DNA of 64,000 nt from Chamaelirium japonicum (taxonomy: Eukaryota; Streptophyta; Magnoliopsida; Liliales; Melanthiaceae). The stretch lies in NCBI GenBank assembly GCA_947650365.1, contig CANTAL010000004.1, positions 2,081,501-2,145,500 of the forward strand, read 5' to 3'. The position numbers and the translations under genes were made by a program. The notes under the pieces were generated by a model, which ran no database searches, had not been told where the DNA came from, and saw only the letters and a program-made list of their open reading frames with translations. Below, piece by piece: positions 1 to 25,480 of the stretch; the first letter of the stretch is position 1; the number at the start of each line of letters is the position of its first letter.

Positions 1-2488
1 CTTGGTGAGCCGATTCTTTAAGGATTCAAGTTCGTGACCTTGCGCCTCGTAACGGTTCGTCAACACCTTGCTCTCCTCTTTCTCTTTGCGAAGATCCTCG
101 ATCTTGGCCTTGAGAGAGTTTTTCTTTGAAGCCAAAAGCTCCCTCAGCTTATCCCTCTCCTCATGGGCAGCCTCCAGTTCAGCTTTCAAACGGGATACCT
201 CAGATGCAGCCTCCCGTTCTCCTGCCCTCCTGGAGAGTTTGCTCGCGATTCTCAAAACTGCTGAGCTCTGCAGATGGACAAAGAGTTAGAATTATTCTGA
301 AGATACAATTCAAATACTTGATCAAGCAGATGCACATACCACTACTTCAAGCCTATCGAAGGCTTCGTCAAAAGGAGCATCCGGAAGGTTGCAAAGCTTT
401 CGAATCACACCAGTGGGGTGGTTAATATCAACATCACCCAAACTCTTTATCTTCTGAGCCAGGCCAGCAGGTGTACCTACAATCCATGCAGCAGTTCAAA
501 GTGTTAGAATATTTTCAAGCTTCAAAGGCAAGACAATCAAGGCAAGTTAGCACAATTACCTGAGGCTTCAACCCTCGGCTCCTTACCCTTCCCGTGGTCG
601 ATGCTCTTACCCTTGGGGGTAGACTTCTCCTTGATGGGGGTGGGCTCCGATTGGGGATGGGGAGTCTCATCACCCACGCGACTTCCTCTTTCCAGGTGTG
701 CTGGAGAAGGAATGTCTTGGAGAGGCGAGATCTCCCCTTCACCTTGCGGTTGAGCCCAGCCACGAGGGCTGCCATCTCCTCAGCCAGCGAGTGCGAGGGA
801 GGAGGAGGTTGTTCAACCTCCACACCCCCACTTGTAGTCACCCCTTCGAGACGAGGAACCTCGGGAGGTATCTGATCGAGGGGTGTAGGGTTGCTTCCAA
901 CCCCACCACTCCCCGATAGCTTGATTTTGAAGCGCAGTGGGTTCTTCTTCAAATCCCCAAAGTTATAAGCAGGAACCACTTTAGGGCCATCGCCCGTTGC
1001 ATCCATAATCTTACGGGCTCTAGCCTCGTCTATGAGGATCGGCTGTGAGTCCTCATCAGCACCACCAGTGGGGGTGAGAGGAATTTCTTCCTCGCCACCC
1101 CCATGTCCTTTGCCCCCATCTTCTTCATCATCTTCATCATCCTCATCGTCTCCATTTTCTCCCCCGTCGCTACCAGTGCTGTCATCAGCATCTTCATCAC
1201 CATCATCATCTCCACCCTCATCCTCTTCCTCTTCGCCTCCACCTTCCTCCTCTCTCCCTTTTTCCTCTTCTCCATCTTCCTCCTCCTTTTTCTTCTCATC
1301 ATCCTCCTGCTTGATGGGGATTTTCCTTTTCTTCGCCGGGCCCTTCTGTATCACCAATTTCTCCTCCGTGGGCAAGCTGCGCCTAGCTCCGTAAGCCTTC
1401 TTCTCAAATCGAAGTTTTCTAACAATTTTGCCTGACTGAGGGTCCTCCTCATAATCCGAGTAGATGACCTCGTTATCTTCATAACGAAGCTTCGACCGGT
1501 GGAGGAGGTTGGCATTGCCATGTCGGACCGGGCAATTCGAGAATTGCTTCCAAGACTGAGTCCCGCATGTCAACTCCAGAAAAAGATTATCAACAGCCCC
1601 TACTCGCTCCGAAGGCCACGAGAGAGCTCCTCCTGTACTGTACATATCTACCTCTTCGTGCACCTTGTACAGGGGAACCTCAGGTACAGACAGAGGAGTC
1701 CATGCGCCAGACACCGATAGCGGCCAATCCGTGTAGAGCTTGTCCGAGCCGATGGTGTCAATGATCGGCCGAAGGGCAGAGACACCCGTCAGATTGTAGA
1801 ATGGGCTATCCTTCCTCCAGGCCCATCGGTAATGATAAAAGAAATACCCCAGCTCGATCCGGGCTTCTTCACCTTCAGGGAGGCTGGAATAACATTCCCT
1901 GAGTTCCTTCTGGAAGTCCGACTCTACGCGGCAGAAGACCTAGATAATCCTCTAGGCGTTCCCCGAAACCTGCCCAGGGCAGAGACCGGAGGTGTTCAGC
2001 AACCTCGCGGCGAAAGAAGGCAATGAAAGGCGCAGTCCACAGTTGAGCTGGCCAATGGTGACGATGGTTCCCATCACTTGCTCCTTGCTCGCGTACGAGA
2101 CAAAGATTGTCCGCCTATCGATACCGAAAGCTGATAAAACTCCCGGAAGCGCTGGGCGAGCCTTTCCCTCTGTGAAGCATGCTAGCAGCTTCTGCAGTTT
2201 CTCCCTCTTCACGTCTGTAAGTTTGCCACCAATGTTATACCCAAATTCCGGTTCCGCCGACAGAGGCAGCTGCGGGCAGAGAACAAACTTTGCCTTGGGG
2301 ATCTGCTCTGGCCTTGATGGTGCTGAAGCAAATCCAACCCCCTGGTGCCTCTTTCCCAATTGACCCAGCTCAATAAGCTCTGCCTTGCCTTTGCCTCGGC
2401 CTTTCGGAGTAGAAGAAACTTCGACAATCTCCTTGCCCTTCCTCTTGGAAGGAACTGCACTCTTCTTCGAATTACCAGAAGATGCCAT
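1..2488 (-). pseudogene. Antisense extra gene (aORF) of element A, 3' end off-window
   Basis: This minus-strand gene lies between the expected end of pol and the 3' LTR, running against the element's own genes. Its start (methionine codon at 2486-2488, MASSGNSKKS...) matches that of the copy in B. The N-terminal part has a basic Lys/Arg stretch, then a conserved globular region (GTIVTIGQLNCGLRL, LNTSGLCPGQV) that recalls the plant 'putative gypsy type transposon' (Transposase_28-like) domain; that match is from memory. A long acidic Glu/Asp-rich run and a Pro-rich segment follow. Two GT...AG-bounded introns are visible on the minus strand (477-559 and 268-339), enclosing a 137-bp exon, and a coiled-coil exon runs to the window edge. 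Antisense extra ORFs downstream of pol are known in Tat-lineage elements; the function is unknown. The copy is broken, with about one break. Confidence 0.72.
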
Positions 2489-2929: not shown

Positions 2930-4085
2930 TTTGACCTGACCGTCTGATTTTAACCGATTGGTCAAACTTGACCGATCGGTCAGAATCAACCGATCGGTCA
3001 ATTTTTTACTAGATCTGGCAAAAAACTTGTGTTTTTTGCCGATCACCCAATCCTTGACCGGTTGATTTTAACCGATCGGTCAAACTTGATCGATCGGTCA
3101 AAATCAACCGATCGGTCGATTTTCTACTGGATCTGGCAAAAAACTTGTGTTTTTTTGCCGATCACCCAATCCTTGACCGGTTGATTTTAACCGATCGGTC
3201 AAACTTGACCGATCGGTCAAATTCAACTGATCGGTCGATTTTCTACTGGATATGGCAAAAAACTTAGGTTTTTTGCCGATCACCCGAACCTTGACCGGCT
3301 GATTTTAGCCGATCGGTCAAACTTGACCGATCGATCAAAATCAACCGATCGGTCGATTTTCTACTGGATCTGGCAAAAAACTTAGGTTTTTTGCCGATCA
3401 CCCGAACCTTGATTGGCTGATTTTAGCCGATCGGTCAAACTTGACCGATCGGTCAAAATCAACCGATCGGTCGATTTTCTACTGGATCTGGCAAAAAACT
3501 TAGGTTTCTTGCCGATCACCCGAACCTTGACCGGCTGATTTTAGCCGATCGGTCAAACTTGACCGATCGGTCAAAATCAACCGATCGGTCGATTTTCTAC
3601 TGGATCTGGCAAAAAACTTAGGTTTTTTGCCGATCACCCGAACCTTGACCGGCTGATTTTAGCCGATCGGTCAAACTTGACCGATCGGTCAAAATCAACC
3701 GATCGGTCGATTTTCTACTGGATCTGGCAAAAAACTTAGGTTTTTTGCCGATCACCCGAACCTTGACCGGCTGATTTTAGCCGATCGGTCAAACTAGACT
3801 GATCGATCAAAATCAACCGACCGGTCGATTTTCTACTGGATCTGGCAAAAAACTTAGGTTTTTGGCCGATCACCCGAACCTTGATCGGTTGATTTTAGCA
3901 GATCGGTTAAACTTGATCGATCGGTCAAAATCAACCGATCAGTCAATTTTCTACTGGATCGGTCAAAAAACCATGTTTTTTGACCGATCACCCAATCCTT
4001 GATCGGTTGAATTTGACCGATCGGTCAAACTTGACCGATCGGTCAAAATTGACTGATCGGTCAAAATTGACCGATCAGTCTTTTT
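2930..4085. repeat. 118-bp tandem array of GACCGATCGGTC palindromes (element A)
   Basis: About ten head-to-tail units. Successive units start at 3291, 3409, 3527 and 3645, exactly 118 bp apart. Each unit carries about three copies of the GATCGGTCA motif, including the perfect 16-bp palindrome TTGACCGATCGGTCAA, plus a short inverted-repeat-like stretch (GGCAAAAAACTTAGG...TTTTTTGCCGATC). Its position just before the 3' LTR fits the hypervariable tandem repeats known in Tat/Ogre elements, which can seed satellite DNA. Each palindrome is also a back-to-back pair of W-box cores (TTGACC), the binding motif of WRKY factors; any regulatory use is inference. Confidence 0.93.
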
Positions 4086-4179
4086 TATGCTAACATTCGA
4101 CAAGCTTCTTCGTGCCTTTTTGCGACAGGGGGTTGCTGTTTTTTGCACCAAATCCAAGCCAGCCAGAACGAACTCTAGC

Positions 4180-4197: not shown

Positions 4198-4949
4198 TGT
4201 GGGTGCAAATTTTGGTAGAAGTTTACCAACTACCACTGGACCCACCGGCCCTGCCTGGTGAGCCCACAACGACTACCACTGGACCCACCGGCCCTGCCTG
4301 GTGGGCCCACAACGACTACCACGGGACCCACCGGCCCTGCCTGGTGGGCCCACGAGGACCACCGTGGGACCCACCGGCCCTGCCTGGTGGGCCCACGAGG
4401 ACTATCGTGGGACCCACCGGCCCTGCCTGGTGGGACCAAGAGCCTGTGGAATCCCCCAGAAGACGGTAGCGGGGCCCGCCAGCTTTACCTGGAGGATCCC
4501 CAGATGCTGCAGCAGAAACCGCCATTTACCACCAGAGAATCCTATAAATAGCAGAGCCTTCGAGTATAAAAAGATCCGAAATCCATTTTCCACTTCCGAG
4601 ATCTGATTTTCAGAATCCAGAGCTCTGGAATCTCTCAGCTCCCCATCTATCGTCTCTCTTTGATCTTCTTCTCTCCTTCGAAGAGATCAGAGTGTTCCTA
4701 GTGATACTCGGCCTGTCGAGATCACTTCAACATAAGTGTTAGTGAATTCGGGTTGCTCCCTATAGCACGGAGACGTAGTCTTCGGCTGAACTCCGAGATC
4801 ACCTCTTGTGTCTACTCTCTGAATGCATTTCTCTGTTTAAGTATTGAGAACGACAACCTCAACAACAGATCAAACAACGATCTTCCATTTCAACTCCAAT
4901 TGACTAGTGAGGCGAGGTCTTCGGGTCGGCACGAAGATTTTCCCCCACA
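4198..4949 (+). repeat. 3' LTR of element A
   Basis: A 752-bp LTR starting TGTGGGTGC and ending CCCCCACA, the same ends as B's LTRs. It holds five copies of a 43-bp GC-rich repeat (about 4238-4436), a TATA box (TATAAATA at 4543-4550) and a pyrimidine-rich stretch. The sequence differs from B's LTRs at many places, so A is a separate insertion. Its pair partner is off-window, so its age cannot be estimated here. Confidence 0.9.
4238..4436 (+). repeat. 43-bp tandem repeats in the LTR of element A
   Basis: Five units of GGGACCCACCGGCCCTGCC-type sequence, each an imperfect inverted repeat (GGGACCCACC against GGTGGGCCC) able to form a hairpin. They lie about 100-300 bp upstream of the LTR TATA box, where U3 enhancer repeats are expected. 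Confidence 0.85.
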
Positions 4950-4988
4950 ATGATCTTAGCATATGTGCGGACACCCTAGAGGCATACT
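4950..4988 (-). repeat. 39-bp scrap of copia element C's LTR between A and B
   Basis: All 39 bases match C's other LTR at 43613-43651. It shows that A and B both inserted into the same LTR of C, only 39 bp apart. The part of this LTR corresponding to 43498-43612 must lie left of element A, outside the window. Confidence 0.9.
4984..4988. repeat. Target-site duplication of element B, left copy (ATACT)
   Basis: ATACT before the left LTR matches ATACT at 18316-18320 after the right LTR. The uninterrupted site in C's other LTR reads GGCATACTACG (about 43645-43655). The one-base offset on the right makes the match slightly imperfect. Confidence 0.7.
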
Positions 4989-5788
4989 TGTGGGTGCAAA
5001 TTTTGGCAAAGAAGTTTGCAAGCAGCGGGACCCACCGGCCCTGCTTGGTGGGCCCATGAAGACTACAGCAGGACCCACCAGCCCTGCTTGGTGGGCCCAC
5101 GCAGACTACAGCGGGACCCACCGGCCCTGCCTGGTGGGCCCACGAAGACTACAGCGGGACCCACCGGCCCTGCCTGGTGGGCCCATGAAGACTACAGCGG
5201 GACCCACCGGCCCTACCTGGTGGGCCCACGAAGACTATCGCGGGACCCACCGGCCCTGCCTGGTGGGCCCAATAGCCTGTGAAATCCCCCAGAAGACGGT
5301 AGCGGGGCCCGCCAGCTTTACCTGGAGGATCCCCAGATACTGCAGCAGAAACCACCATTTACCACTAGAGAATTCTATAAGTAGCAGAGCCTTCGAATGT
5401 AAAAGGATCCGATTTCAAATCCAGAGAGAAAATCCAGTGCCATCATCATCTGATATCTGATTTCAGAAATCAGAGCCCTGGAAGTTCCAACCCTCTCAAT
5501 CTCTAATTCTTCTTGATCTTCTTCTTATCCTCGAAGAGATTAGAGAGACCTCAGTGACACTCGGCCTGTCGAGGTCACTTTGATCAAAGTGTTAGTGAAT
5601 TCGAGTTGCTCCCTATAGCACGGAGACGTAGGCTTCGGCTGAACTCCGAGATCACATCTCTTGTATCTAATTTTCTCTGCTTGCATATTGAGAGTCCCAA
5701 CTTCCATCGACAGATCAAACAACAATCTTCAACTTCAATTGACTGGTGAGGTGAGGTCTTCGGGTCGGCACGAAGATTTTCCCCCACA
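4989..5788 (+). repeat. 5' LTR of element B
   Basis: An 800-bp LTR, TGTGGG...CCCACA. It has six copies of the 43-bp repeat (5027-5272), a TATA-like box (TATAAGTAG at 5376-5384) and a U5 end identical to that of A and of B's 3' LTR. It is exactly 43 bp longer than the 3' LTR, that is, one repeat unit. Confidence 0.93.
5027..5272 (+). repeat. 43-bp tandem repeats in the 5' LTR of element B
   Basis: Six units of the GGGACCCACCGGCCCTGCC repeat with inverted-repeat character. The 3' LTR has five units. The one-unit difference accounts for the whole length difference between the two LTRs. Confidence 0.88.
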
Positions 5789-5952: not shown

Positions 5953-7930
5953 ATGGCGAGAACGAAGCACCAGGGTCAACCAGAAGGAAGTAACACTCAA
6001 CAACAAGCTCGTCCTGAGACTCGATCAATGAGTCAAAGGCTCAACTTCGGACAGCCCCTTGCTGTTCCTGAGATAGGGGTTTGCTCAGGGAGTGGGAGAT
6101 CTGTCGATCGACCTATCACCCAACCCGCACGACAATCGATTGGGCAAACTACCCCCGCTCCTACTGAAGACCCTCCATCGACCTATCAAATCTCGGCGGT
6201 CGATTTCCAACTACTTCAACTGGCAAAGCAGAATGCCACCCTCACTGCTGAGAGGGATGCACTCAAGAAGGCAGCCTCCGAGGCTGGAATTGCTCTTCCC
6301 ATCCCCTCGACTAATGAGAGGGTCGATCGGCCACGACCATCAATCCACTCCGAGCAAAGGAGATCAATAGGCACTGTTGCCCCCGGGAGGATTCATCGCG
6401 ACCCAACTCCCTCTGCTGCCCCGTGGAAACAGAGTGTTTGGGATCGACTCGACGATGAGTCCTCCCAATCTTCTTCTGGTCGCAACTGCGATAGGAAGAC
6501 ACCTTCAAAGCTCGATATACCAAGGAGGCACCAAATGAGAGGCGCTCCTTCGAAGAGTAGAGTCTCCCCTTCCATTCCACCTCAATATGGACTTGGATCG
6601 GACCTTCGACACTGACTTCAGCCAGTAAATACTTCAATGCCTGAGCAAGACCTTGCGATCTTGCCTCTTGACCCACACCTAGGTCGAGGACATGGTCGTA
6701 GGGACAGGTATTCCTCTGCCGGACCTCTCCATCGAAGCCTCTTCGAATCAACATTTCCAAGGGGATAGAGAACTCCTATCCTCCCCAAATTCAACTGCGT
6801 CAAAGGAGATCCGACTCTCCATATACTTGCCTTCAAGCAAGCCTTGACACCGCACGAAGAAGAGAACAACGTGCTTTGTCGCACTTTCGCCGGGAGTCTC
6901 GATGAGCCCTCACTTGATTGGTATCATAATCTCCGAGCTGGGTCCATCACCCAGTTTGGTGTTTTGGCTAACCTTTTCGTGCAGCATTATCAACTCAATC
7001 TGAAGCCAGAAAAGAAGCTCGACTCCCTCTATCGGCTGAGGATGGGTGCTGATGAGACTCTCCACAATTTCACTAGGAGATTTCGCAACGAGCATGCTGC
7101 TCTCTCTGGAAGACATCTGGATGATGAAGCCATCATGTTGGCTTTTCAGAACGCCCTCCGATTCGATCTACACATCTACAACGACTTCATTCGCAATCCC
7201 CCTTCTTCTCTGGGTTCTATGTTTGATCGGATCCAGAGAGAGATTGAGGTCGAAGATGATCAAGTCGCTCGAAAAGGGCGAGAAACGAAACGAAGACCGG
7301 CGGAAAGAGATGCTCCAAAGTATGCTGCCAAAGCTCACAACGCTGAGGCAGCAGCTCCCCCAGTCAACAAACGGCCAAAGAATGATGGACGTCGATCTCC
7401 TACGAAGACCACTTTCACCGAGTGGAATCTGCCGGTCGAACAGATCCTCGATCGCATTCAACACGAAGAATTCCTTCGAAGGCCCAATCCGCTTCAGCCA
7501 AACTCAAAATTCACGGCTGACAAAACGGTTTACTGCGACTTCCATCGAAGTCATGGCCATTCCACCGATCGGTGCTATCGACTGAAATTCCATCTTGAAG
7601 ATTTATTGCGAGAAGGCCACCTTCAAGAGTTCGTCAAAGGCGGACAAGATCAATGTCGAGCCTCTGCAAAGGGGAAAGAAGCATGTTGGATCCATCAAAT
7701 CTCCTCCAACCGGCAACCTATCTCTGTGAATGCCAACGTCTTTGGTATTCATGGAACATTGCACAATCAAACCTTGACCGGGAAGGAAGTGGATCGGCAG
7801 GTTCGACGCATCTTCCACGTTCGTTCTGCTACGAACAAGGAGGATACCTGGATCGAGAAGCCTATCGAAGGTTTGCCTTGGCCATCCATTGTTTTCAACG
7901 ACTCCGATCTTCAAGGAGTCCACACTCCCC
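5953..7930 (+). pseudogene. gag region of element B
   Basis: Starts MARTKHQGQPEG with a Gln/Pro-rich leader and a short coiled-coil-like stretch (LAKQNATLTAERDALKKA). The capsid core follows (LDWYHNLRAGSITQFGVLA, LYRLRMGADETLHNF), typical of the Retrotrans_gag family. A zinc-knuckle-like motif of Tat type (YCDFHRSHGHSTDRCYRLK) lies at about 7530-7590. The role is particle assembly and RNA packaging. This region shares the element's breaks. Confidence 0.85.
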
Positions 7931-7939
7931 ATCGAGACC

Positions 7940-8420
7940 CCCTGGTCTTGAAACTCCTCATTGACGGAAGCACCGTCAATCGAATCCTCATCGACACCGG
8001 GAGTTCCATCGATATTATATTCTCAGATTGTTTCAAACGTCTGGGACATAGATACTCAAGCCTCGACGTCGTCCCGACCGTAATCACTGGCTTCAACGGC
8101 GAATAAAGCATCACGGTGGGCGAATCGAGATTCACTCTCGACCTTAGTCGAGAGACTGGAGTCTCGATGAGGTTTGCAATTGTCGAAGGAGTATCCAGCT
8201 ACAACGCCATTCTCGGGCGACTATTCCTTTACCAGATCAATGCCATCTTTTCTTCTTACCACCAACTACTCAAGTTTGCAACGGGAGAAGGCATTGTCTG
8301 CATACGAGGTGATCAGCAAGCTGGGAGGTCTTGTGAGGCTGCTGTAGCTAAAATAGATCATAAGATCAATATTGCTCCTTTGAAGCGGCCGCGAGACAAA
8401 ACTGGTCCCTCCAAATAGCA
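7940..8420 (+). pseudogene. Aspartic protease region of element B
   Basis: Contains the active-site motif LIDTGSSIDIIF and the downstream ILGR motif (YNAILGRLFLYQ) of retropepsins. It lies between gag and RT, as in all Ty3/gypsy elements. It would have processed the polyprotein. Confidence 0.85.
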
Positions 8421-8569
8421 ATTAAAGGAGATTCCACTAGCCGATCCTCCACCAATCGAATGGGAAGCCTCACCTTCAATTGAAGAAATCATCCCTATCA
8501 ATATCGGCAGAGGAGATCTCCACCGACAAACTTTCATTGGTACCGGTCTTAGCGATGCAGAAGCGCAAC

Positions 8570-9560
8570 ACATGGTATTCTTCCTCCAGTCCAATATCGA
8601 TGTATTTGCTTGGTGCTTTGAAGACATGCCTGGGATCAATCCAGATGATGCTTGTCACAGGCTCGCTATCAAAGAAGAAGTGAAGCCAATCAAGCAAAAG
8701 CCACGCACAATCCGACCAGAATTACAAATTGCTGTTCAAGAAGAGATCAGCAAACTACTCGCAGCAGGCTTCATCCGTGAAGTAGAGTATCCTACTTGGA
8801 TCTCTAATATTGTTGTTGTCCCAAAGAAGAACGAAAAGGTCAGAGTGTGCATCGACTTCACCAACCTCAACAAGGCTTGTCCCAAAGATCCATTCCCCAT
8901 GCCAAGGATAGATAGACTCGTCGATGCCACTGCTGGCCACGAGCTATAGTCTTTTATGGATGGATACTCTAGGTACAACCAAATTCCACTTCACGCTGAT
9001 GATCAAGAGAAAACATGCTTTGTGACCAGCAGAGGTCTCTATTGTTACAATGTAATGCCATTCGGCCTCAAAAATACTGGTTCCACTTATCAAAGGCTAG
9101 TCACAAAGATGTTTGAAGGTCAAATCGGTCGCAACGTCGAAGTCTACATCGACGATCTCCTCACAAAGAGCTCCATTCGAGACAAGCATTTATCCGATCT
9201 GGTGGAAACCTTTCAAGTCCTTCGAAAGTATCGCATGAAGCTTAATCCAGCCAAGTATGCTTTCGGAGTTCAATCGGGCAAATTCCTGGGTCATCTTGTG
9301 ACCAGGAGAGGCATTGAAGCCAATCCCGACCAAATTCGAGCCATTCTCGACATGCCATCACCTACCAATCGAAAGGAAGTACAATGCCTTACTGGAAGAC
9401 TTGCTGCCCTCAATAGATTCATCTCAAAGTCTTCCGACAAATGTAAGCCTCTCTTCGACAAACTACGAAAGGCGGATACTTCAGGGTGGAGTTCAACTTG
9501 CGAAGAAGCTTTTCAGAGCATCAAGAAATATCTGGTGCAAACTCCCATCCTGACGGCTCC
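8570..9560 (+). pseudogene. Reverse transcriptase region of element B
   Basis: Shows the gypsy RT landmarks in order: NIVVVPKKNEKVRVCIDF, NKACPKDPFPMPRID, YNVMPFGLKNTGSTYQR, the catalytic YIDD (VEVYIDDLLTKS) and the FLGHLVTRRGI connection motif. It would have made the DNA copy of the element RNA. Part of a broken polyprotein. Confidence 0.9.
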
Positions 9561-10480
9561 TCTTCCCAAAGAAGACTTGTGGCTCTATCTCGCCGTAACC
9601 GATCAAGCAATCAGTGTGGTCCTAGTTAGTAGAAGAGAAGGCATCGAACATCCAGTTTATTACATCAGTCATACTCTTCTTCCGACTGAGACTCGCTACT
9701 CAAAAACTGAGAAGGTCATCCTGGCCTTGCTCACTGCATCACATCGTCTCCAACCCTACTTTGTCTCTCATCAGATCACTGTCATTTCAGAACACCCACT
9801 CAAAGATATTGTTGACAAAGCTGGTCGAGCTGGTCGTATGACCAAATGGGTGATCAAAATGAGCTCTCTAGGAATTCTATTTGAATCTCGCACTTCCATC
9901 AAAGGTCAAGCCATTGTTGATTTTCTAGCTGACTTTCCAGTTGAAGACCCCATCTCTTGGGAAGTAGACGTCGATATGCGCCTAGAAGATGAAGCTGATC
10001 CTCCGTTCAGTCTTGCAATGAAAACCGATCCAAGCCTCGAAGCAATCACCACAACTCCTCCATGGAAGCTTTACACTGATGGAGCTTCAAGTGCGATCGG
10101 TTCGGGAACTGGGATAGTCTTGGTATCCCCCGAACTTGATCATCTACAGAAGGCCACTCTTCTCGGGTTCAATGCCACCAACAACGAAGCCGAATACGAA
10201 GCACTCATTTACGGACTCGAAATGGCGGAATCCCTGGGGGTAGATCGAATCATCGTCTACAGCGACTCCCAGTTGATCATAAGGCAAATCAATGGAGAGT
10301 ATACAGCTCGAGAAGAAAGAATGCAACTCTATTTGGCCTTAGTACGACGTCTTCAATAATGTTTCACTAATGCTGAATTCATTCAAATCCCAAGAGCAGA
10401 GAACCGAGAAGCAGATGCCTTAGCCAATGCTGCCTCAGTTCTTGGAGACTCACTCGGAGGAAGGCAAATACAGATCGATT
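9560..10480 (+). pseudogene. Dual RNase H region of element B (gypsy-type plus archaeal-type)
   Basis: The first domain follows RT directly (LYLAVTDQAISVVLV, YYISHTLLPTETRYSK), the usual gypsy RNase H. A second, complete-looking RNase H follows (LYTDGASSAIGSG, NNEAEYEALIYGLE, VYSDSQLIIRQI) with the D-E-D residues of the archaeal/plant type. A second RNase H between the first one and integrase is a known mark of Tat-lineage elements and is the main basis for the lineage call. Confidence 0.87.
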
Positions 10481-11830
10481 ATCAAGAAGTGCCCAAGACC
10501 ATCCCCGATCAACAGATCCTTGCTACTACAAAGAGATCTGGGGGTGGAGACCAATTGATGTTGAACCTTACTACTGCAAATGAATTTGAAGATTGGAGAC
10601 AGTCAATTTTTGACTTCTTCAAATGTGGCAAAGTACCAGAAGATCCCAATCAAGCCCGAAAACTTCAAAGGAAGCTCCCATGCTTTACCATTCAAGGAGA
10701 AGATCTATACTTCAAATCTCACAACGGGGTGATGCTTAAGTGTATTGGTCCCGAACAAGCAAAGGCAATCCTGATTAATATCCACTCTGGAGCTTGTGGA
10801 AATCATTCGGGAGGAAGATCTCTTGAAGCCAAGACGAAGCTACAAGGTTACTACTGGCCAACAATGGCAAGGGATGCTCAGCAAGTTATTCAAAGATGCG
10901 AGCCATGCCAACGACACGTTCGAGCTATCCATCTCCCTGCAGACGAGCTTCACCAACTATCAAGTCCATGGCCTTTCCATTAGTGGGGGTTGGACTTCTT
11001 GGGTCCTTTCCCACCAACTCCAAGCAAGAAGAAGTATCTACTGCTGGCCACAGATTACTTCACCAAATGGGTTGAAGCCGTGCCACTCTTTCGAGAGACT
11101 GATGATGAAGTGATCAAATTTATTAGGCACAACATCTTCTCAAGATTTGGTACAACTCAAGTTCTTGTTGCTGACAATGGAGCTCAATTCGACTCTGACA
11201 AGTTCCATGAGTTCTGTCTGAACAACGGAATCAAGCTTTTCTATTCAACTCCAAGATACCCTCAATGCAATGGTCAAGCTGAAGCCTCCAATAGAGTTAT
11301 TCTTGGTATACTCAAGAAGAAGCTCAACGACAAGAAAAGATTGTGGGAACAAGTCCTACCTGAAGTTCTTTGGGGGTATCGCACAACCCCAAGAAGATCA
11401 ACAGGGTTCTCACCCTTTCATCTGACATATGGATCGGAAGCAGTACTCCCAACAGAAAACATATCAAATACTCTCAAGACCAGGGCAGTTGAAGAAGGAA
11501 TCAATGCAGAGCTTCGAGTCAATGATCTGGACTTCTCTGAAGAACTACGAGACCAAGCCTCCCTTCGTGTGGCCAAGTATCAGCAGAAGATCAAACGAGC
11601 CTACGATGAGAAAGTCTACAAAAGGTAATTCCCAATTGGCAGTCTGGTCCTCAGAGCAGTTTTCTACAACACAAAGGAACACAGCAGTGGGAACCTTGCT
11701 CCCAACTGGGAAGGTCCATACATCGTCGAATCAGTGGGAGGCAAAGGCTCTTATCGATTGATCTCACCAGAAGGAAATAGATTGCCACGAGCCTGGAATT
11801 CTAGACACCTCAAATTGTTCTATCCATGAT
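10480..11830 (+). pseudogene. Integrase region of element B
   Basis: Shows the H2C2 zinc finger (HSGACGNHSGGRS...CEPCQRH), the DDE core (LLLATDYFTKWVEAV, VADNGAQFDSDKF, YPQCNGQAEASNR) and a C-terminal part ending SRHLKLFYP (GPYIVES, SYRLISPEGNRLPRAW). No chromodomain is seen, consistent with Tat rather than chromovirus. The region ends near 11828, about 630 bp before the convergent antisense gene. Confidence 0.88.
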
Positions 11831-12457: not shown

Positions 12458-15295
12458 TCAGGGTTTAGCCATACTGGGAGCGTGCGACTTCTCTCTTTCG
12501 GATCCACCGCGATCTTTGCTCGTAACCGATGCCTTGGAAGATCGGACGCTGCTGGCATGGACCCTGAGTGCCTCCACCGCCTTCTCGGCTGTTTCCTTGT
12601 AGCTCTTGCACTCGGTCTGCGCATGCTCCAACTCCTTCTTGAGGGTTTCCTCCTTAGCTGCTGAAGCGGCATCCTTCGCAGCAAGTTGAGCCTCTAGCTC
12701 CTTTATTCGAGCCACACGATCGAAGCCCAAGTTCTCGATCTTGAAGAATCGATTCTTCAATTCTTCAAGCTCGTGACCCCGAGCTTCATAACCATTTTTC
12801 CACCCCTGGCTCTCCAATTTCTCCTTGCGAAGGGCCTCAATCTTAGCCTTCAAGGCCTCCTTCTTGGAGGATAGAAGCTCCCTCAGCTTATCCTTTTCCT
12901 CGTGGGCAGCTTCCAATTCAGCCGTTAGGCGAGAAACTTCAGATGAAGCCTCTTGCTCTCCGTACTTCTTGAAGAGCTTCGTGCCGAATTTCAGAACCGC
13001 TGAGTTCTGCGAACAAACAAAAAGTGATAGAAGTATATCGAAAGATTCAATGCGAAAGACAATTCAAGCTGGTGCACTTACCACCACTTCAAGCCTATGA
13101 AAGGCTTCCTCGATCAGGGCCCCCGGAAGGTTGCAGAGCTTCCGGATCACGGGAGTTGGGTGGTTGATGTCAACCTCACCCAAGTCTTTCAAAATTGAAG
13201 CCATGCCTGCAGGAGTCCCTGCAAATCAAACAGAAGTTCAAAAGAGTTAGAATATTTTCAAACTTCAAAGGCAAGATAATCAAGGCAAGTTACTACAGAT
13301 ACCTGAGACATTGACTCGAGGAGCCTTTCCCTTCCCACGATCGGAGCTCTTACCCCGAGGGGTCGACTTCTCCTTGGTGGGAGTTGGCTCTGGTTGGGGT
13401 TGAGGAGCCCCATCACCCACACGGCTCTCCCTCTCCAAGTGAGTAGGAGAGGGAGCACCCTGAGGAGGTGAGACTCCCCCTTCCTCTTGTGGCCCGCTTG
13501 GCTGAGCGAGCCCCGCCACGATAGCAGCTACCTCCTCAGCCAGAGAGTGTGAGGGGGGTGGAGGTTGCTCAACTTCCAAACCCCCACTCGTAGTCGCTCC
13601 TTCGAGACGAGGAACTTCAGGAGGGATTTGATCAAGGGGCGTGGGGTTGCTTCCAACCCCACCACTCCCTGAGAATTTTATCTTCAAGCGCATCGGGCGC
13701 TTCTTCAACTCATCGAAATGAAAGGCGGGAACCACCTTGTGGCCGTCGCCTTCTACATCCATCACCCCTTCCATACGACGGGCCTTTGCCTCATCGATTG
13801 GGATAGTCTGGGAATCTTCTTCTTCCAAGCCACCAGTGGGGGTGGGAGGAAGATCATCCCCACCACCCCCCTGCCTTTGGTCACCACCAGTGGGGGTGGG
13901 AGGAATTTCTTCCTCACCACCCCCGTTTCCACCATCTCCATCAGTGGGGGTGGGAGGAAGATCATCCTCGCCACCCCTATCTTCGTCATTATCATCATTG
14001 CCATCCTCTCATGCATCTTCTTCTTCTTCATCATCATCTTCTTCCCCTTTCTTTTCTTCTTCCTCTCTATCTTCTTCTTTCTTCTTTCCTTCTTCGTCCT
14101 GTTGAGGCTCGATGAGGATTTTTCTCTTCTTCTTCGCTGGGCCTCGTTGTATCACCAGCTTCTCCTCTGCGGTAGGCAATCGACGCCTCGCACTGTAAGC
14201 CTTCTTCTCGACGCGAATCTTCCTGACAATCTTGCCCGACTGAGGATCCTCCTCATAGTCGGAGTACAAGACCTCATTGTCTTCATATCTGGCCTGCGAT
14301 CGGTGAAGGAGATTGGCTTTACCATACCTCACTGGGCAGTTTGAAAACTGCTTCCATGACCTGGTACCGCAGGTCAACTCGAGGAACAGGTTGTCAATGG
14401 CTCCAACCCTCTCCGAAGTCCAAGCAAAGACGCCCCCCTCGCAGTACATCTTCACTTCATCGTGCACTTCGTTCCGGGGGGTCTCGGGTACGGAGAGAGG
14501 AGTCCATGCATCGGAAACAGATATGGGCCAATCGGTGTATAGTTTGTCCGAGGGGACTGTGTCAGCAAGTGGACGCAGTGCAGATACGCCAGTCAGGTTG
14601 AAGAACGGGCTGTCTTTCCTCCAAGCCCATCGATAATGATAGAAAAAATATCCAAGCTCGATCCGGGCAACTTCATCCTCTGGAATGCTGGAGTAACATG
14701 CCTTCAGATCCTCCTGGAAGTCCGATTCTACGCGGCAGAAAGCGTAGATAATCCTCCAGGCATTCCCAGTGACCTGCCCGGGGCAAAGGCCGGAGGTGTT
14801 CAGTAACCTCGCGGCGAAGGGTGGCAACGGAAGGCGCAGACCACAGTTGAGTTGGCCGATAGTCACGATGGTTCCCATGACCTGCTCCTTACTGGCAAAT
14901 TTGGTGAAGATCGTCTTCTTGTCAATGCCAAACGCAGACTGGATCCCCGGGAGTGAAGGCTGAACTTTCCCTTCTGTGAAGCAGGCGAGCAGTGTCTGCC
15001 ACTTCTTTCTCTTCGCATCTGTGAATTGGCCACCGGTATTGTATACATACTCCGGTTTCTCTGTCAGAGACATGAGCGGGCCCAAAACGAATTTTGCCTT
15101 GGGGATATGCTCTGGCCTCGATGGCGCTGAAGCAAACCCTACTCCTTGGTGCCTTTTTCCCAGTTGTCCAAGTTCGGCAAGCACCGCCTTGCCTTTGCCA
15201 CGTCCTTTCGGAGGAGATAGAACCTCAGCGATCTCCTTCCCCTTCCTCTTCAAGGAAACCGCACCCGACTTCTTCGAACTACCGGAGGAAGCCAT
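12458..15295 (-). pseudogene. Antisense extra gene (aORF) of element B, three exon-like blocks
   Basis: A minus-strand gene convergent with pol. Block 1 (15295 down to 13303) starts MASSGSSKKSG, then a basic segment (KGRGKGKAVLAEL), a conserved globular region (FASKEQVMGTIVTIGQLN, PPFAARLLNTSGLCPGQV, AIDNLFLELTCGTRSWK), a long Glu/Asp-rich run and a Pro-rich segment. Block 2 is 13218-13082 (137 bp; RKLCNLPGALIEEAFHRLEV). Block 3 (13006 to 12458) is a coiled coil (MEAAHEEKDKLRELLSSKK). The gaps (84 and 75 bp) begin GT and end AG on the minus strand, and block 2 has exactly the same length as in element A. Block 1 recalls the plant 'putative gypsy type transposon' domain, from memory. Function unknown. 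About one break. Confidence 0.75.
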
Positions 15296-15754
15296 TTGAT
15301 CGATCAAGCGAGAGCAGAGAACAAGAAATCGGGAGCAAAAGAGTCTGGACTTTGAAAAATTTTTGAAAGCGTGAAGCGAAAAATGACAGCCAGAGAAGCT
15401 TAAGTATCCTGAGGGAATTAGGCGCGTAAATCGAAAGGACATGTGTCATCACCATATCAAATCGCGTGTTTTTGCAGGTACACGTGGCATCTATCCGTAG
15501 CAAGCGCAAAACCAGGCGAACAGTCGGGACCAGACGAAGCGTTAGACCACCGATCCAGACAAGCCACCGGTCCAAGCAAACCACCGGTCCGAGTGAACCG
15601 GACCACCGGTTCACAACCTCATTCATACAAACCGAAGACTCAAAAAGCAGAAAGAATCAAACTCCATCAATGTACAAAACTCTGCCCGAAGATCAAAGAA
15701 GAAAAACAAGCTATACTACTTCCTCGCAAGGGCAGGTTCGAAACTTAAACCTGA
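15296..15754. promoter_or_regulatory. Upstream region of the element B antisense gene
   Basis: Non-coding sequence between the antisense gene start and the palindrome array, collinear with 2489-2929 in element A. It carries degenerate ACCGGTCC/CAAACCACCG repeats (about 15545-15615). It is probably a promoter region by position; I see no other gene in it. Confidence 0.5.
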
Positions 15755-17430
15755 CCGGCTGAATTTAACCGATTGGTCAAACATGACCGATCGGTCAAAT
15801 TCATCCGATCGGTCGATTTTCTACTAGATCAGGCAAAAAATGTAGTTTTTTGCCTGATCACTCATTCCTTGACCGGCTGATTTTAACCGATCGGTCAAAC
15901 ATGACCGATCAGTCAAAATTAACCAATCGGTCGATTTTCTACTGGATCAGACGAAAAACGTAGTTTTTTGCCCGATCACTCAATCCTTGACCGGCTGATT
16001 TTAACCGATCGGTCAAACATGACCGATCGGTCAAAATTAACCGATCGGTCGATTTTCTACTGGATCAGGCGAAAAACGTAGTTTTTTGCCCGATCACTCA
16101 ATCCTTGACCGGCTGATTTTAACCGATCGGTCAAACATGACCGATCGGTCAAAATTAACCGATCGGTCGATTTTCTACTAGATCAGGCGAAAAATATAGT
16201 TTTTTGCCCGATCACTCAATCCTTGACCGGCTGATTTTAACCGATCGGTCAAACATGACCGATCGGTCAAAATTAACCGATCGGTCGATTTTCTACTGGA
16301 TCAGGCAAAAAACGTAGTTTTTTACCCGATCACTCAATCCTTGACTGGCTGATTTTAACCGATCGGTCAAACATGACCGATCGGTCGATTTTCTACTGGA
16401 TCAGGTAAAAAACGTAGTTTTTTGCCCGATCACTCAATCCTTGACCGGCTGATTTTAACCGATCGGTCAAACATGACCGATCGGTCGATTTTCTACTGGA
16501 TCAGGCGAAAAACATAGTTTTTTGCCCGATCACTCAATCCTTGACCGGTTGATTTTAACCGATCGGTCAAACATGACCAATCGGTCAAAATTAACCGATC
16601 GGTCGATTTTCTACAGGATCAGGCGAAAAACGTAGTTTTTTGCCCGATCACTCAATCCTTGACTGGCTGAATTTAACCGATCGGTCAAATTCATCCGATC
16701 AGTCGATTTTCTACTAGATCAGGCAAATAACTTTACTTTTTTCCCGATCACTCCAACCTTGACCGGCTGAATTTAACCGATCGGTCAAACTTGACCGATC
16801 GATCAAATTCATCTGATCGGTCGAATTTCTACTGGATCAGGCAAAAAACTTGGTTTTTTGCCCGATCCAACAATCTTTGACCGGCTAATTTTAACCGATC
16901 GGTCAAATTCAACCGATTGGTCGAATTTCTACTAGATCAGTCAGAAAACTATGTTTTCTGACCGATCACTCCAACCTTGATCAGTTGAATTTAACCGATC
17001 GGTCAAACATGACCGATCGGTCAAATTCAACCGATCGGTCAAATTTCTACTAGACCAGTCAGAAAATTCTGTTTTCTGACCGATCACTCCAACCTTGATC
17101 GGTTGAATTTAACCGATCGGTCAAACATGACCGATCGGTCAAATTCAACCGATCGGTCGAATTTCTACTAGATCAGTCAGAAAACTGTGTTTTCTGACCG
17201 ATCACTCCAACCTTGATCGGTTGAATTTAACCGATCGGTCAAACTTGACCGATCGACCAAATTCAACCGATCGGTCGAATTTCTACTGGATCGGTCAGAA
17301 AACTGTGTTTTCTGAGCGATCACTCCAATCTTGACCCGTTGAATTTAACCGATCGGTCAAATTCGACCGATCGGTCAAAATTGACCGATCGGTCAATTTT
17401 GACCGATCAGTCAGAAATTGACCGATGGAA
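15755..17430. repeat. 118-bp tandem array of GACCGATCGGTC palindromes (element B)
   Basis: About fourteen units. Full units start at 15987, 16105 and 16223 (118 bp apart), and some shorter units lack one motif copy. The motif TGACCGATCGGTCA is a perfect palindrome repeated up to three times per unit. The array is longer than in A and has diverged toward a TTTTCTGACCGATC variant at its 3' end. Its location upstream of the antisense gene and just before the 3' LTR is the same in both copies. Confidence 0.93.
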
Positions 17431-17557: not shown

Positions 17558-18314
17558 TGTGGGTGCAAATTTTGGCAAAGAAGTTTGCAAGCAGCGGGAC
17601 CCACCGGCCCTGCTTGGTGGGCCCACGAAGACTACAGCAGGACCCACCGGCCCTGCTTGGTGGGCCCACGCAGACTACAGCGGGACCCACCGGCCCTGCC
17701 TGGTGGGCCCACGAAGACTACAGCGGGACCCACCGGCCCTGCCTGGTGGGCCCACGAAGACTATCGCGGGACCCACCGGCCCTGCCTGGTGGGCCCAATA
17801 GCCTGTGAAATCCCCCAGAAGATGGTAGCGGGGCCTGCCAGCTTTACCTGGAGGATTCCCAGATACTGCAGCAGAAACCGCCATTTACCACCAGAGAAAC
17901 CTATAAATAGCAGAGCCTTCGAATGTAAAAGGATCCGATTTCAAATCCAGAGAGAAAATCCAGTGCCATCATCATCTGATATCTGATTTCAGAAATCAGA
18001 GCCCTGGAAGTTCCAACCCTCTTAATCTCCAATTCTTCTTGATCTTCTTCTTATCCTCGAAGAGATTAGAGAGACCTCAGTGACACTCGGCCTGTCGAGG
18101 TCACTTTGATCAAAGTGTTAGTGAATTCGGGTTGCTCCCTATAGCACGGAGACGTAGGTTTCGGCTGAACTCCGAGATCACATCTCTTATGTCCAATTTT
18201 CTCTGCTTGCATATTGAGAGTCCCAACTTCCATCGACAGATCAAACAACAATCTTCAACTTCAATTGACTGGTGAGGTGAGGTCTTCGGGTCGGCACGAA
18301 GATTTTCCCCCACA
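17558..18314 (+). repeat. 3' LTR of element B
   Basis: A 757-bp LTR with five 43-bp repeats (about 17596-17798), a TATA box (CTATAAATAG at 17901-17910) and the ending CCCCCACA. It pairs with 4989-5788 at about 98% identity by eye outside the repeat-number change. Confidence 0.93.
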
Positions 18315-21082: not shown

Positions 21083-21589
21083 TGTAACGCCCCGATATTT
21101 TACGGATTAATTCAACCCGTATAATACTGGGGTGTTAGGAATAAAAACTTGATATGAATAAATTCCATCAAATATGGAATTCAACTGAGCCACTTTATTT
21201 AAAACACAATTGTTTGATACATTTCTTGAAAACAAAAGCCTAAGGCTTAAATTTTTTCTTCATCATCGACACTTCATATTTCGGCTCCGGCATCATCGTA
21301 GTAAGGTGTGTAGAGTGGGTCTTCAACTCCATCTAGGTCATTCCCCGATCGCTCCTCATCTTCTCCGGGTACGGCAGGGTTTGTCTCTGTAGGGTGTACA
21401 TCATCTGTAGGGGGGTGAGTTCTATCCACTGACTCACCAATGACTCAGTTTTGTTCATGCTAAATAATATGTATTGAAAGCAGTAAACATGACTACGAAA
21501 AGTAAATAATTAAAACATTAATCACCCGATTCCCTTTTTGGCTCATCCGGCCAGGGTAGGAATCTCAATCCTTACCCGGGTACTTTTAG

Positions 21590-21785
21590 TCCGCAACAAG
21601 GCTAGCCCCACACCTAGGATTATCTTTTTGGCCCGCAGCCAGGGACAGCCCCACACCCAGGATTTATCTTTTTGGCCCGCAGCCAGGGACAGCCCCACAC
21701 CCAGGATTTATCTTTTAGGCTCGCAAGCCAGGGACAGCCCCACACCCAGGTACTTTTTGGCCTTCCGCCAGGGCAAGCCCCACAC
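21590..21785. repeat. 44-bp tandem repeats in the left LTR of E
   Basis: Four to five degenerate units of GGCCCGCAGCCAGGGACAGC plus CCCACACCCAGG, spaced 44-45 bp (AGGGAC at 21641, 21685, 21730). The same cluster occurs in the other LTR at about 27265-27460. The proline-rich reading frame through it is a by-product of the repeat. Confidence 0.85.
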
Positions 21786-22509
21786 CCAAATAAGTGATTA
21801 CGTATTTCAAAATTTACCGTTCCATATCAAATTACCGACATTCTATAGCATAAAATTAGCATGAATAAACTGAGTTTAAATCCCCTACCTGAATGGCTGA
21901 AAACTCTTACCCCTCCTACGGAAGCTTTAGTATGCTCAAAACCTGAAAATATATTACTAATAATTGGTCAGTTTTTATCCTAAATTTTTTTCAGGACTTT
22001 TCCAACATTTTTCGATGTGTACTAATGGGTTTTCTTCTTTGGGGGTGTTTTGGTCAATTCCAAAATATCTTTAAATTTATATTCATTTTGTAGATATTTT
22101 TATTAGGAATCCGTGGCCGTAAACGGAATTTGATTCCGAGTTAGAATGAAGATGTTATGACCATTTTACCCTAGGGGTAAAATGGTAAATATACTTTTTT
22201 ATTGTCGGTTGTGGAATTTTATAATCTAAGTAAGTGTATTTTGTCATTATGAGTCCAACGTCACTGACGGAACTCAATTCCGAGTCCGTATGGGTAAGAT
22301 AGGGTCAATATAGTTTGCATAGATAATCTATATATTTAATTTTAGGTGATTTATAAACATAAAAGGTAAATGGATCTATTGGTTAGCCTAAAGGGTTTTA
22401 GAATAAGTTAAGAAGAGGTTGTGGGTTCTAAATCTTGTATTGCCTTTTTGCATCACCAATTTATTAAAAATCCGAACGGGTTAACGGGTTTAAATTACGT
22501 ACCCGACCC

Positions 22510-22905
22510 AACAGTGGTCGGTGGTGGTGGTGGTGGTGGTGGCGGCCGGCGGCGGCCGGTGGTAGGTGGCGGCGGTGGTGGCCGACAGTGGCGGCGGCCG
22601 GTGGCGGGTGGCGGCCGACGGCGGCGGTGGTCGGAGGTCGGTGGCGGCGGCGGTGACCGGCGGTGGTGGCCGACGGTGGCGGCAGCCGGCGGTGGTGATC
22701 GGCGGCGACCGGTGGCGGCCGGCGACGGCGGCGGCGGCCGGCGGGGGTGGCCGGCGGCGGATGTGGCCAGCGGCGGGCGGCGGCGGCCGGCGGCGGTGAC
22801 CGGCGACGGGGGTGGCCGGCGGCGGGCGGCGGCCGACGGCGGCGGTCGTCGGCGGCCGGCAGGCGGCGGCGGCGGCGGAGGGTGGTCAGCGGTGGGTGGT
22901 GGGGC
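22510..22905. repeat. GGC/GGCCGG-rich low-complexity tract in the left LTR of E
   Basis: About 390 bp made almost only of GGN triplets (GGTGGTGGTGGCGGCCGGCGG). The plus strand is G-rich, with many closely spaced GG runs that could form G-quadruplexes. In the element's own sense it is C-rich and lies just downstream of the TATA box, in the presumed R/U5 region. The partner tract in the right LTR (28190-28550) differs in length. Confidence 0.9.
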
Positions 22906-22953
22906 CCTCTTGTCGCGAGGACTGCTGTGAAGAAGTTTGTGGGTGGGGGGGGG

Positions 22954-22961
22954 TTTATATA
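22954..22961 (-). promoter_or_regulatory. TATA box of element E, left LTR
   Basis: TATATAAA on the minus strand, flanked upstream by a strong hairpin (CCCCCGGGA and TCCCGGGGG arms, 22964-22992). The same arrangement is at 28615-28622 in the right LTR, which would drive transcription of the element. Confidence 0.75.
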
Positions 22962-23009
22962 GGCCCCCCGGGAATACAAAGAGTCCCGGGGGCTTTTTTG
23001 CAAATCTGC

Positions 23010-23185
23010 CGTTTCGTATTCTGGCCGTCCGATTTGGAAACGAACGGCACAGATGACGTTTGATATGCCCAGTGTCGTTTTGTATTCTGGCCGTTCGATT
23101 GCGATCGAACGGCCAGATGACGATTGATATTCCTTGTGTCGTTTTGTATTCTGGCCGTTCGATTGTGATCGAACGGTTGGATGAC
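23010..23185 (-). promoter_or_regulatory. Hairpin repeats upstream of the E promoter (left LTR)
   Basis: Three tandem units at about 64-bp spacing share GTATTCTGGCCGT...GATGACG. The second (23088-23115) is a perfect hairpin with 12-bp arms (TGGCCGTTCGAT) and a 4-base loop. The third (23152-23179) has 9-bp perfect arms. They lie 50-220 bp upstream of the TATA box on the minus strand, where an enhancer would be. The same set is in the right LTR (about 28670-28850). Confidence 0.8.
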
Positions 23186-24077: not shown

Positions 24078-25169
24078 TTAATTGGAATAATATTCTAAAA
24101 GTGAATCGTTCATACCTTTAATGACGTCGAAAAGTGAATCGTTCATACCTTTAATGACGTCGTTTGATTCTTCCTCAGTAGATACTGCAAATGTTTTTCC
24201 AGGCACCTTTTGATTTTGAGCGGTGCGAGCTACCGGTACTTGCGGAGCATTTCGAAAAGGAGGACTGGTAGGAATGTTACCATTCAAGCGAGGACAGTAT
24301 CGTTGAAAATGATCCCGCGATCCGCATGTGAAGCAAGTCCGAGGTCCTATAGATTTTGGAGGACTACTCATCCTTGCTTGAAACTCTTGTATCTTTGGTC
24401 TTTTTAACTCTATCAATGGTGTACTTCTTTTCAGTCTATTCTTTTCAAATATTTTTCGAGTTTCCTCCCATTCTCGTTCTGCCACTAAAGCAGTTTGTAC
24501 TAGTTCTCCATATTTTCGAATACGGAGTACCGCCACTCTGGTTCGAATATGAGGATTCAAACCTTGTTCAAACCTTTTGGACTTCAGTTCTTCAGTGGCT
24601 ATAAGATACTGGGCAAAACGTGACAGTTCAGTAAACTTGGCTTCATACTGGGAAACACTAAGCTTTCCTTGATAAAGTTCTAGAAATTCCGTAATCATTC
24701 TGTCCCTGGTTGCGTCGGAGAAATATTTTTCTAAGAATACTTTCGTAAATTCTTCCCATGTGAAAATAACTTGAGTTCTCTTGACCGAGTCCCACCAGTA
24801 ATCTGCCTCTCCTTCTAACATATAAGTGCCCAAGATGACTTTCTGTTCATCATTTACTTTTAAAGTCTCCAAAATCTTTCCCACCTGTTTGAGCCATCTA
24901 TCGGCAATTAGGGGGTCCGGTTCTCCTTTAAAGGCAGGGGGTTTTAATTCTTTGAATTCTTTTATGATTACTCCCATCCTGGAACCATCCTTCGAAGAGT
25001 TCATCTTTTCTATTAGTTGGTGAAGAGCTCCTAACACCTTGGTTAGGTTTTCATTGGGAGCAGCATTATCGTGTGAATTCATAATGTCTAAAAAATTAAA
25101 GAACACATATTCAGATAAAATATATTTTTTTGTTACTAATACTTTTCTTGTCACTTTACATATAGCCAA
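24078..25169 (-). CDS. gag of element E (only gene of this element)
   Basis: A single open gag gene of up to 363 residues. The likely start is the methionine at 25082 (MNSHDNAAPNENL), since the upstream residues are hydrophobic and unlike gag. It has the Retrotrans_gag core (ADRWLKQVGKILETL, LEGEADYWWDSVKR, EFTKVFLEKYFSDATRDRM, FLELYQGKLSVSQYEAKF) and one zinc knuckle near the C terminus (CFTCGSRDHFQRYC). The C-terminal end carries an 11-residue duplication (VIKGMNDSL twice). The role is capsid formation and RNA packaging; copying and integration would depend on enzymes from a related full element. It looks whole. The core resembles chromovirus gag more than Tat gag. Confidence 0.88.
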   Translation of the reverse strand: MAICKVTRKVLVTKKYILSEYVFFNFLDIMNSHDNAAPNENLTKVLGALHQLIEKMNSSKDGSRMGVIIKEFKELKPPAFKGEPDPLIADRWLKQVGKILETLKVNDEQKVILGTYMLEGEADYWWDSVKRTQVIFTWEEFTKVFLEKYFSDATRDRMITEFLELYQGKLSVSQYEAKFTELSRFAQYLIATEELKSKRFEQGLNPHIRTRVAVLRIRKYGELVQTALVAEREWEETRKIFEKNRLKRSTPLIELKRPKIQEFQARMSSPPKSIGPRTCFTCGSRDHFQRYCPRLNGNIPTSPPFRNAPQVPVARTAQNQKVPGKTFAVSTEEESNDVIKGMNDSLFDVIKGMNDSLLEYYSN

Positions 25170-25480
25170 TAACTATTTTGAACAACATCGGGTGTTCGCA
25201 ATGATTTTCACCGCCCACTTTTCCACAGGTCCTTATTGGACAGGACGGAAATAAGTCCTAAATTGAGTGAATAGGAAATTTTTGACCCATGAGTTTCTGT
25301 TAATATATCTTTTCGTAACTAAGAAGTATCAGTAACTACTAATCTGTCCCGAAATCTTTGTCCAATATTGTCTGTGCCAAGACATCCGGTTTTCTATTGC
25401 TTTCCTTTTCTAACTTGTATCAAATTCCTTGAAGTTCTTAATTTCACATCTGTACCTCGATTACCTCTTCTTCTTCTTCT

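Follow-up and report, generated by a model that had tools for sequence, protein, structure and literature searches.

A predicted three-exon structure of the antisense Transposase_28 gene in Retand-lineage Ty3/gypsy retrotransposons of Chamaelirium japonicum

The locus described here raises the question of whether an LTR retrotransposon of Chamaelirium japonicum carries, on the strand opposite to gag-pol, a protein-coding gene interrupted by introns and, if so, to which kind of gene it belongs. The window, i.e. the whole stretch of DNA that was analysed, comprises 64,000 nucleotides (contig CANTAL010000004.1, positions 2,081,501 to 2,145,500) of a 1.52 Gb genome. It is virtually certain, in our view, that the gene represents the antisense accessory gene with Transposase_28 (TRP28) of a Ty3/gypsy element of the Retand lineage, and very likely, judging from sequence comparison, that removal of two short introns joins its exons; that both statements hold, giving a TRP28 gene of three-exon form, is quite likely.

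Domain content and LTR coordinates identified element B as a plus-strand Ty3/gypsy retrotransposon, with a 5' LTR of 800 bp (4989..5788, plus) and a 3' LTR of 757 bp (17558..18314, plus). The two LTRs are separated by a K2P distance of 0.024; their differences comprise 17 transitions and 1 transversion, the pattern expected from decay of methylated cytosines. ATACT flanks B on either side, with one additional A on the 3' side, and a target duplication around the element is therefore probable, if not perfect. Downstream of the 5' LTR, TTTGGCACCGTC was seen, and the broken pieces of gag-pol (5953..11628, plus) contain gag, RT, RNase H, a second RNase H and integrase, the order of the pol domains being RVT_1, RT_RNaseH, RVT_3/RNase_H, Integrase_H2C2 and rve. 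This order agrees with the Tat-type affiliation proposed in an earlier note on this DNA. A second RNase H of archaeal type, placed between the first one and integrase, is a criterion common to Retand and Ogre (PMC6317226), and B shows this arrangement as well as an antisense Transposase_28 ORF between pol and the 3' LTR, the domain match of B itself scoring under the Pfam cut-off. Both the LTRs and the internal region (11,769 bp as calculated from the coordinates) have lengths inside the ranges published for Retand (LTR 315-1,194 bp, internal 7,380-12,869 bp; PMC11963269).

Element A lies only in part within the window. Its 3' LTR (4198..4949, no strand assigned) is separated from the 5' LTR of B by 39 bp, and two related Retand elements are thus placed head to tail (4198-5788). 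The LTRs of both elements contain a 43-bp tandem repeat (4229-4438, 5023-5271 and 17592-17797). A tblastn search of the window with the pieces of B revealed no third antisense gene. Further along, two stretches 5.67 kb apart (21083-23167 and 26758-28828), 99-100% identical in the listed blocks, flank a gag ORF (24078-25172, minus) and probably form the LTR pair of a young element.

The antisense gene of B extends on the minus strand from an ATG at 15295 to position 12458 and is composed of (i) exon 1 (13303..15295, 1993 nt), which ends in phase 1, (ii) exon 2 (13082..13218, 137 nt), which brings the phase back to 0, and (iii) exon 3 (12458..13006, 549 nt including the stop), which holds a long-helix, coiled-coil-like part. 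These are separated by intron 1 (13219..13302, 84 nt, GTATCTG..TTTGCAG) and intron 2 (13007..13081, 75 nt, GTAAGTG..TTCGCAG). The same arrangement was read on the minus strand of A: exon 1 (560..2488, with the ATG at 2488), intron 1 (477-559, 83 nt), exon 2 (340..476, 137 nt), intron 2 (268-339, 72 nt) and the first 89 codons of exon 3 (1..267), which continues beyond the window start. Introns of GT-AG type, frame-preserving phases and coding constraint on both sides, as required of a spliced plant gene, were all found.

The earlier note had described an antisense gene of three blocks in both elements, with a middle exon of 137 bp and intervening stretches of 72-84 bp bounded by GT and AG. Direct reading of the minus strand showed this exon and these stretches to be real in A and B, and the three-block layout stood; what the note did not mention is that the frame is broken in both copies, once in B (an in-frame TGA at 14011-14009, within the acidic run) and several times in exon 1 of A (stops at codons 179 and 183, plus a 13-nt deletion near codon 596). 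It had also placed the gene opposite to pol, which is correct as to orientation, the gene being antisense to gag-pol, but not as to position: it is found in the stretch from pol to the 3' LTR, 3' of the last recognised pol piece (which ends at 11628), and not across pol.

Copies of the gene were searched for with codons 1-365 of B as a protein query, which gave 9983 first-look candidates and 112 scored matches of 87-100% identity; 30 loci were fetched, one of them B itself (L009). Exon 2 was exactly 137 nt long in 29 of these 30 loci, B among them, and was represented by 25 distinct sequences. The exception (L030), a copy interrupted by an LTR, was left out of the intron, exon 2 and exon 3 counts; there (~3383-4095, oriented strand) the interruption falls near codon 628, and the LTR is followed by a PBS-like stretch of a related element. 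Intron 1 (81-88 nt) had a GT donor and an AG acceptor in all 29 remaining loci, and intron 2 (73-77 nt) a GT donor in 29 and an AG acceptor in 28. The motif CTAAC was located 31-33 nt ahead of the end of intron 1 in 28/29 loci, and retention of intron 1 would bring in a stop in every one of the 29. In seven of them every examined part was open and in phase.

Two observations concern the non-coding parts. Among copies with similar exons, the 5' half of intron 1 (13219-13302 and relatives) occurs in at least two versions. When A and B were compared, intron 1 (84%), the LTRs (84-85%) and the upstream regions (75-89%) were found to be closer than the synonymous sites. Both observations may reflect either module exchange by recombination or constraint.

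More divergent families were reached with the PF04195 model, 137 of the 150 loci scored (from 5979 candidates) exceeding the cut-off. Thirty of these TRP28 loci were fetched, most of them 74-81% identical to B, with three at 61-67%, two at 43-48% and one at 93%, the last being a copy already in the first set. Since L009 is B and L034 and L040 are one copy, the 60 loci of the two sets amount to 59 distinct copies. Exons 2 and 3 with short introns were present in five of the seven loci read downstream (L071-L075), and were not found in the other two (L069 and L070, relatives of 43-48% identity). In A and L071-L075, 23 of the 24 splice dinucleotides were intact at intron identities of 0.41-0.84; the sole exception was the GC donor of L072, a locus in which the acceptor of intron 1 is also shifted to one base later. 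The corresponding log10 chance, -9.6, is indicative only, because the intron 1 donors of L071-L073 were set by eye and the sequences are related. The predicted splice sites are thus kept in families whose introns have strongly diverged.

The coding frame was analysed in the pair A-B, which was fixed by the window and not chosen by similarity. For codons 1-395 we obtained dN 0.119, dS 1.67 and dN/dS 0.07, and dN/dS values of 0.18, 0.19 and 0.12 for the linker, exon 2 and exon 3 (89 shared codons), respectively; these ratios are rough, because dS is near saturation (it was not computable for codons 301-395). Shifted frames of the same pair gave 1.12 to 3.26. Nine indels separate the two copies in exon 1, and in eight of them the length is divisible by 3; the three indels in the introns measure 1, 1 and 2 nt. 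In the 30-locus set, dN/dS was 0.12 for exon 1, 0.23 for exon 2 and 0.16 for the first part of exon 3. Comparison of the divergent loci with B gave 0.21-0.47 for exon 2 in four of L071-L075 (L071 being saturated) and 0.12-0.25 for exon 3 in the four computed. The possibility that other frames are the coding ones was rejected, shifted frames ranging from 0.94 to 3.26 and a single reverse frame with 0.20 being the mirror of the coding frame's third positions.

Low dN/dS values could in principle be an artefact of picking copies by their protein similarity. The exon 1 value of the 30-locus set is indeed biased in this way, as a protein query favours copies with few amino-acid changes. A and B, however, were not picked by similarity and still differ by a dN of 0.12 at a dS of 1.67, exons 2 and 3 lie outside the query, and the globular part outside TRP28 gave 0.14 in 20 sequences (B plus 19 of the 30 TRP28 loci, 11 being left out) and 0.06 when B was compared with the 19 others. 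We consider such an artefact scarcely credible; the substitution pattern is that of purifying selection on all three exons in one joined frame.

The same data bear on the proposal that no splicing takes place and that the TRP28 ORF and the coiled-coil ORF are separate antisense genes, exon 2 being a third short ORF. Antisense TRP28 and Smc ORFs are listed apart in the published survey (PMC11963269), and neither spliced exon 1-2 and exon 2-3 junctions nor processed copies, which were considered as a proof of splicing, were found in the genome (0 occurrences, with patterns that fit the subfamily of B only). Separate genes nevertheless seem most improbable to us: exon 2 is merely 137 nt long, its length is fixed in all but one of the 30 loci, it is constrained in the frame that continues exon 1, GT and AG stand at its two edges, and intron 1 always bears a stop. 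The unspliced exon 2-intron 2 junction, in contrast to the spliced ones, occurs 1744 times (901 + 843) when up to 3 mismatches are allowed, against 0 in the reversed control, which suggests that the copies come from sense RNA. Antisense introns could not be removed from such RNA and would therefore persist in new copies. Copying of sense RNA thus fits the persistence of the introns; it is not a proof of splicing.

The product predicted from B consists of a basic N-terminus, a globular part, a nuclear-signal-like KKKRK cluster (codons 388-392), an acidic run and a Pro/Gly-rich linker, followed by the parts encoded by exons 2 and 3. The globular part, far from being an orphan, turned out to carry Transposase_28: the match at codons 144-189 of B reached 22.9 bits, i.e. 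under the Pfam cut-off of 26.2, but the domain was matched in 11/11 aligned family members (E up to 0.1), and the 137 scored loci of this genome mentioned above exceed the PF04195 cut-off. No Pfam match was obtained for the two pieces of A, which are split by stops. A structure model of the globular part was uninformative (pLDDT 31.5). For exon 3 of B, AlphaFold2 predicted a single helix (residues 17-161, mean pLDDT 87.1), which supports the coiled coil of the earlier note as far as a long helix is concerned; a crude test of heptad periodicity did not, as 207 of 1000 shuffles were equally good.

Two further readings of the protein were tried and rejected. There is a weak, non-significant likeness to the TetR helix-turn-helix around codons 100-143 of B (14996-14867, minus), unseen in the relatives tried: TetR_N was matched in B only (E 0.077; 13.2 bits, cut-off 24) and was absent in five other pieces, phmmer against PDB gave a non-significant E of 0.042, and in the profile search TetR (E at least 0.81) ranked beneath two antibody chains at E 0.014. 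An origin from a host gene was suggested by short TRP28 frames (75-92 codons) resembling host exons; of the fetched ones, two (L043 and L067) were element copies with frameshifts, and L047 was a relative of 43-48% identity.

The promoter-like region proposed in the earlier note (15296..15720, minus in B) gained substance from an alignment of 28 upstream regions, namely those of A, of B and of the 26 TRP28 loci (out of 30) that have an ATG at the expected place, the other four being left out. Two G-boxes, at about -191 (the position in B) and about -150 before the ATG, are exact in 25/28 and 22/28 regions, and they fall, respectively, in the top 4.5% and 1.3% of six-column windows ranked by conservation. 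At about -112, a TATA-like position, TATATAAG is exact in 13/28 regions, and B reads ATACTTAAG where its relatives have this position.

The stretch that separates the antisense gene from the 3' LTR contains a tandem array of 118-bp units with GACCGATCGGTC palindromes (15752..17426 in B, 2937..4080 in A, no strand assigned). The palindrome is present in 7 copies in A and 10 in B, with 0.38 and 0.54 palindromic 12-mers, respectively, expected from shuffles, which ignore tandem repetition. A distance of 18 bp is its most common spacing (39 cases). Three or more upstream occurrences of ACCGATCGGT were counted in 52 of the 60 loci (59 distinct copies), and CCGATCGG is kept 3, 3 and 6 times in the three families of 61-67% identity. 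In a survey of 4707 distinct 10-mers in 28 regions (the 30 less L047 and L065), GACCGATCGG was found in 25 and ACCGATCGGT in 24 regions, but two further 10-mers also reached 24/28 and many 23/28, so the whole 118-bp unit is conserved, the palindrome only slightly more. Every unit also has an interrupted palindrome of the type GATCGGGCAAAAAAC-n-GTTTTTTGCCCGATC, found in the 61-67% families as well. Against a general rule stands an array of 106/107-bp units in the window (45546-47003) without 10-bp palindromes; a third gypsy-type pol (RVT_1 at 50554-50048) lies nearby, and the two are assumed to belong together.

The kind of gene is already known, since antisense TRP28 has been published as a hallmark of Retand elements. 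Such ORFs are reported from 97% of recently active Retand clusters, their function being given as unknown; TRP28 is encoded by 57 of 104 antisense ORFs, 11 Smc domains are listed, and DNA binding is predicted (PMC11963269). Element type, location between pol and the 3' LTR, orientation, Transposase_28 and tandem arrays are the same here. The difference is that the survey describes ORFs, while the gene studied here would have two introns and a TRP28 part joined to a coiled-coil exon. The word "intron" has 0 occurrences in the main text of PMC11963269, and a literature search, whose reach ended short of Gomez-Orte 2013 (Grande gene23), gave no recognisable account of introns in this gene. What we provisionally regard as new is the conserved exon-intron structure of the antisense TRP28 gene, and both this structure and the palindromes repeated ahead of the gene seem to be little described.

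In the mechanism we propose, RNA polymerase II would transcribe the minus strand from the gene's own promoter, and splicing would join exon 2 (45 codons) to the TRP28 part with its acidic and Pro-rich linker on one side and to the helical exon 3 on the other. Retrotransposition would copy the sense RNA, in which the antisense introns read backwards and would escape removal, and the antisense position might in this way guard introns and gene against loss. The product may be a nuclear DNA-binding protein with a coiled coil and may serve to regulate the element, a tentative reading to which we give somewhat less than an even chance. That its target is the palindromic array just upstream is doubtful, and equally speculative is the complete arrangement of a self-contained antisense circuit, with a G-box promoter, a two-intron gene and a coiled-coil TRP28 protein binding GACCGATCGGTC palindromes at 18-bp spacing; bound to this array, which lies between the gene's promoter and the 3' LTR, the protein would counter host silencing or autoregulate the element, in the manner of VANC in VANDAL transposons.

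Instead of regulating the element, the protein might help to bring the preintegration complex into the nucleus or take part in integration-site choice. Such a role would be in keeping with the KKKRK cluster and with the accessory-factor idea (PMC7264820), but the gene's own promoter and the adjoining conserved array fit regulation better, and we regard this role as unlikely. The antisense transcript might also work as RNA, pairing with the sense genomic RNA and feeding or dampening silencing, with the protein of minor importance, as has been put forward for antisense ORFs generally (PMC7264820). Codon selection in a single frame of all three exons is not predicted by an RNA role, and we find it hard to believe that the RNA is the main agent, although both roles may coexist.

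A regulatory protein has parallels in known systems. Gene23 of maize Grande, as described in PMC7264820, is transcribed antisense from its own promoter and has a nuclear product; judged by description only (PMC7264820, PMC11963269), it resembles our gene, for which a promoter of its own and a nuclear product are predicted, as an antisense accessory gene. HBZ of HTLV-1 is a spliced antisense retroelement gene encoding a leucine-zipper nuclear factor, an analogy only, as HBZ starts in the 3' LTR whereas the predicted promoter here is internal (PMC1459196). VANC of the Arabidopsis VANDAL elements is an anti-silencing transposon protein whose targets are often tandem repeats in the element's own non-coding DNA; this too is only an analogy, since VANC belongs to a DNA transposon, has other domains and its binding has been demonstrated, the corresponding feature here being a conserved palindromic array (PMC5735166).

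The conserved exon structure would redefine the protein, with TRP28, linker, exon 2 and coiled coil forming one product, and it predicts that many of the antisense ORFs surveyed as "Smc" are the last exon of a TRP28 gene. Work on antisense and spliced transcripts has been called for (PMC7264820); exact junctions are now available for a search of RNA data, and the palindromic array provides a concrete candidate binding site. On a broader view, antisense placement would allow a retroelement to retain introns.
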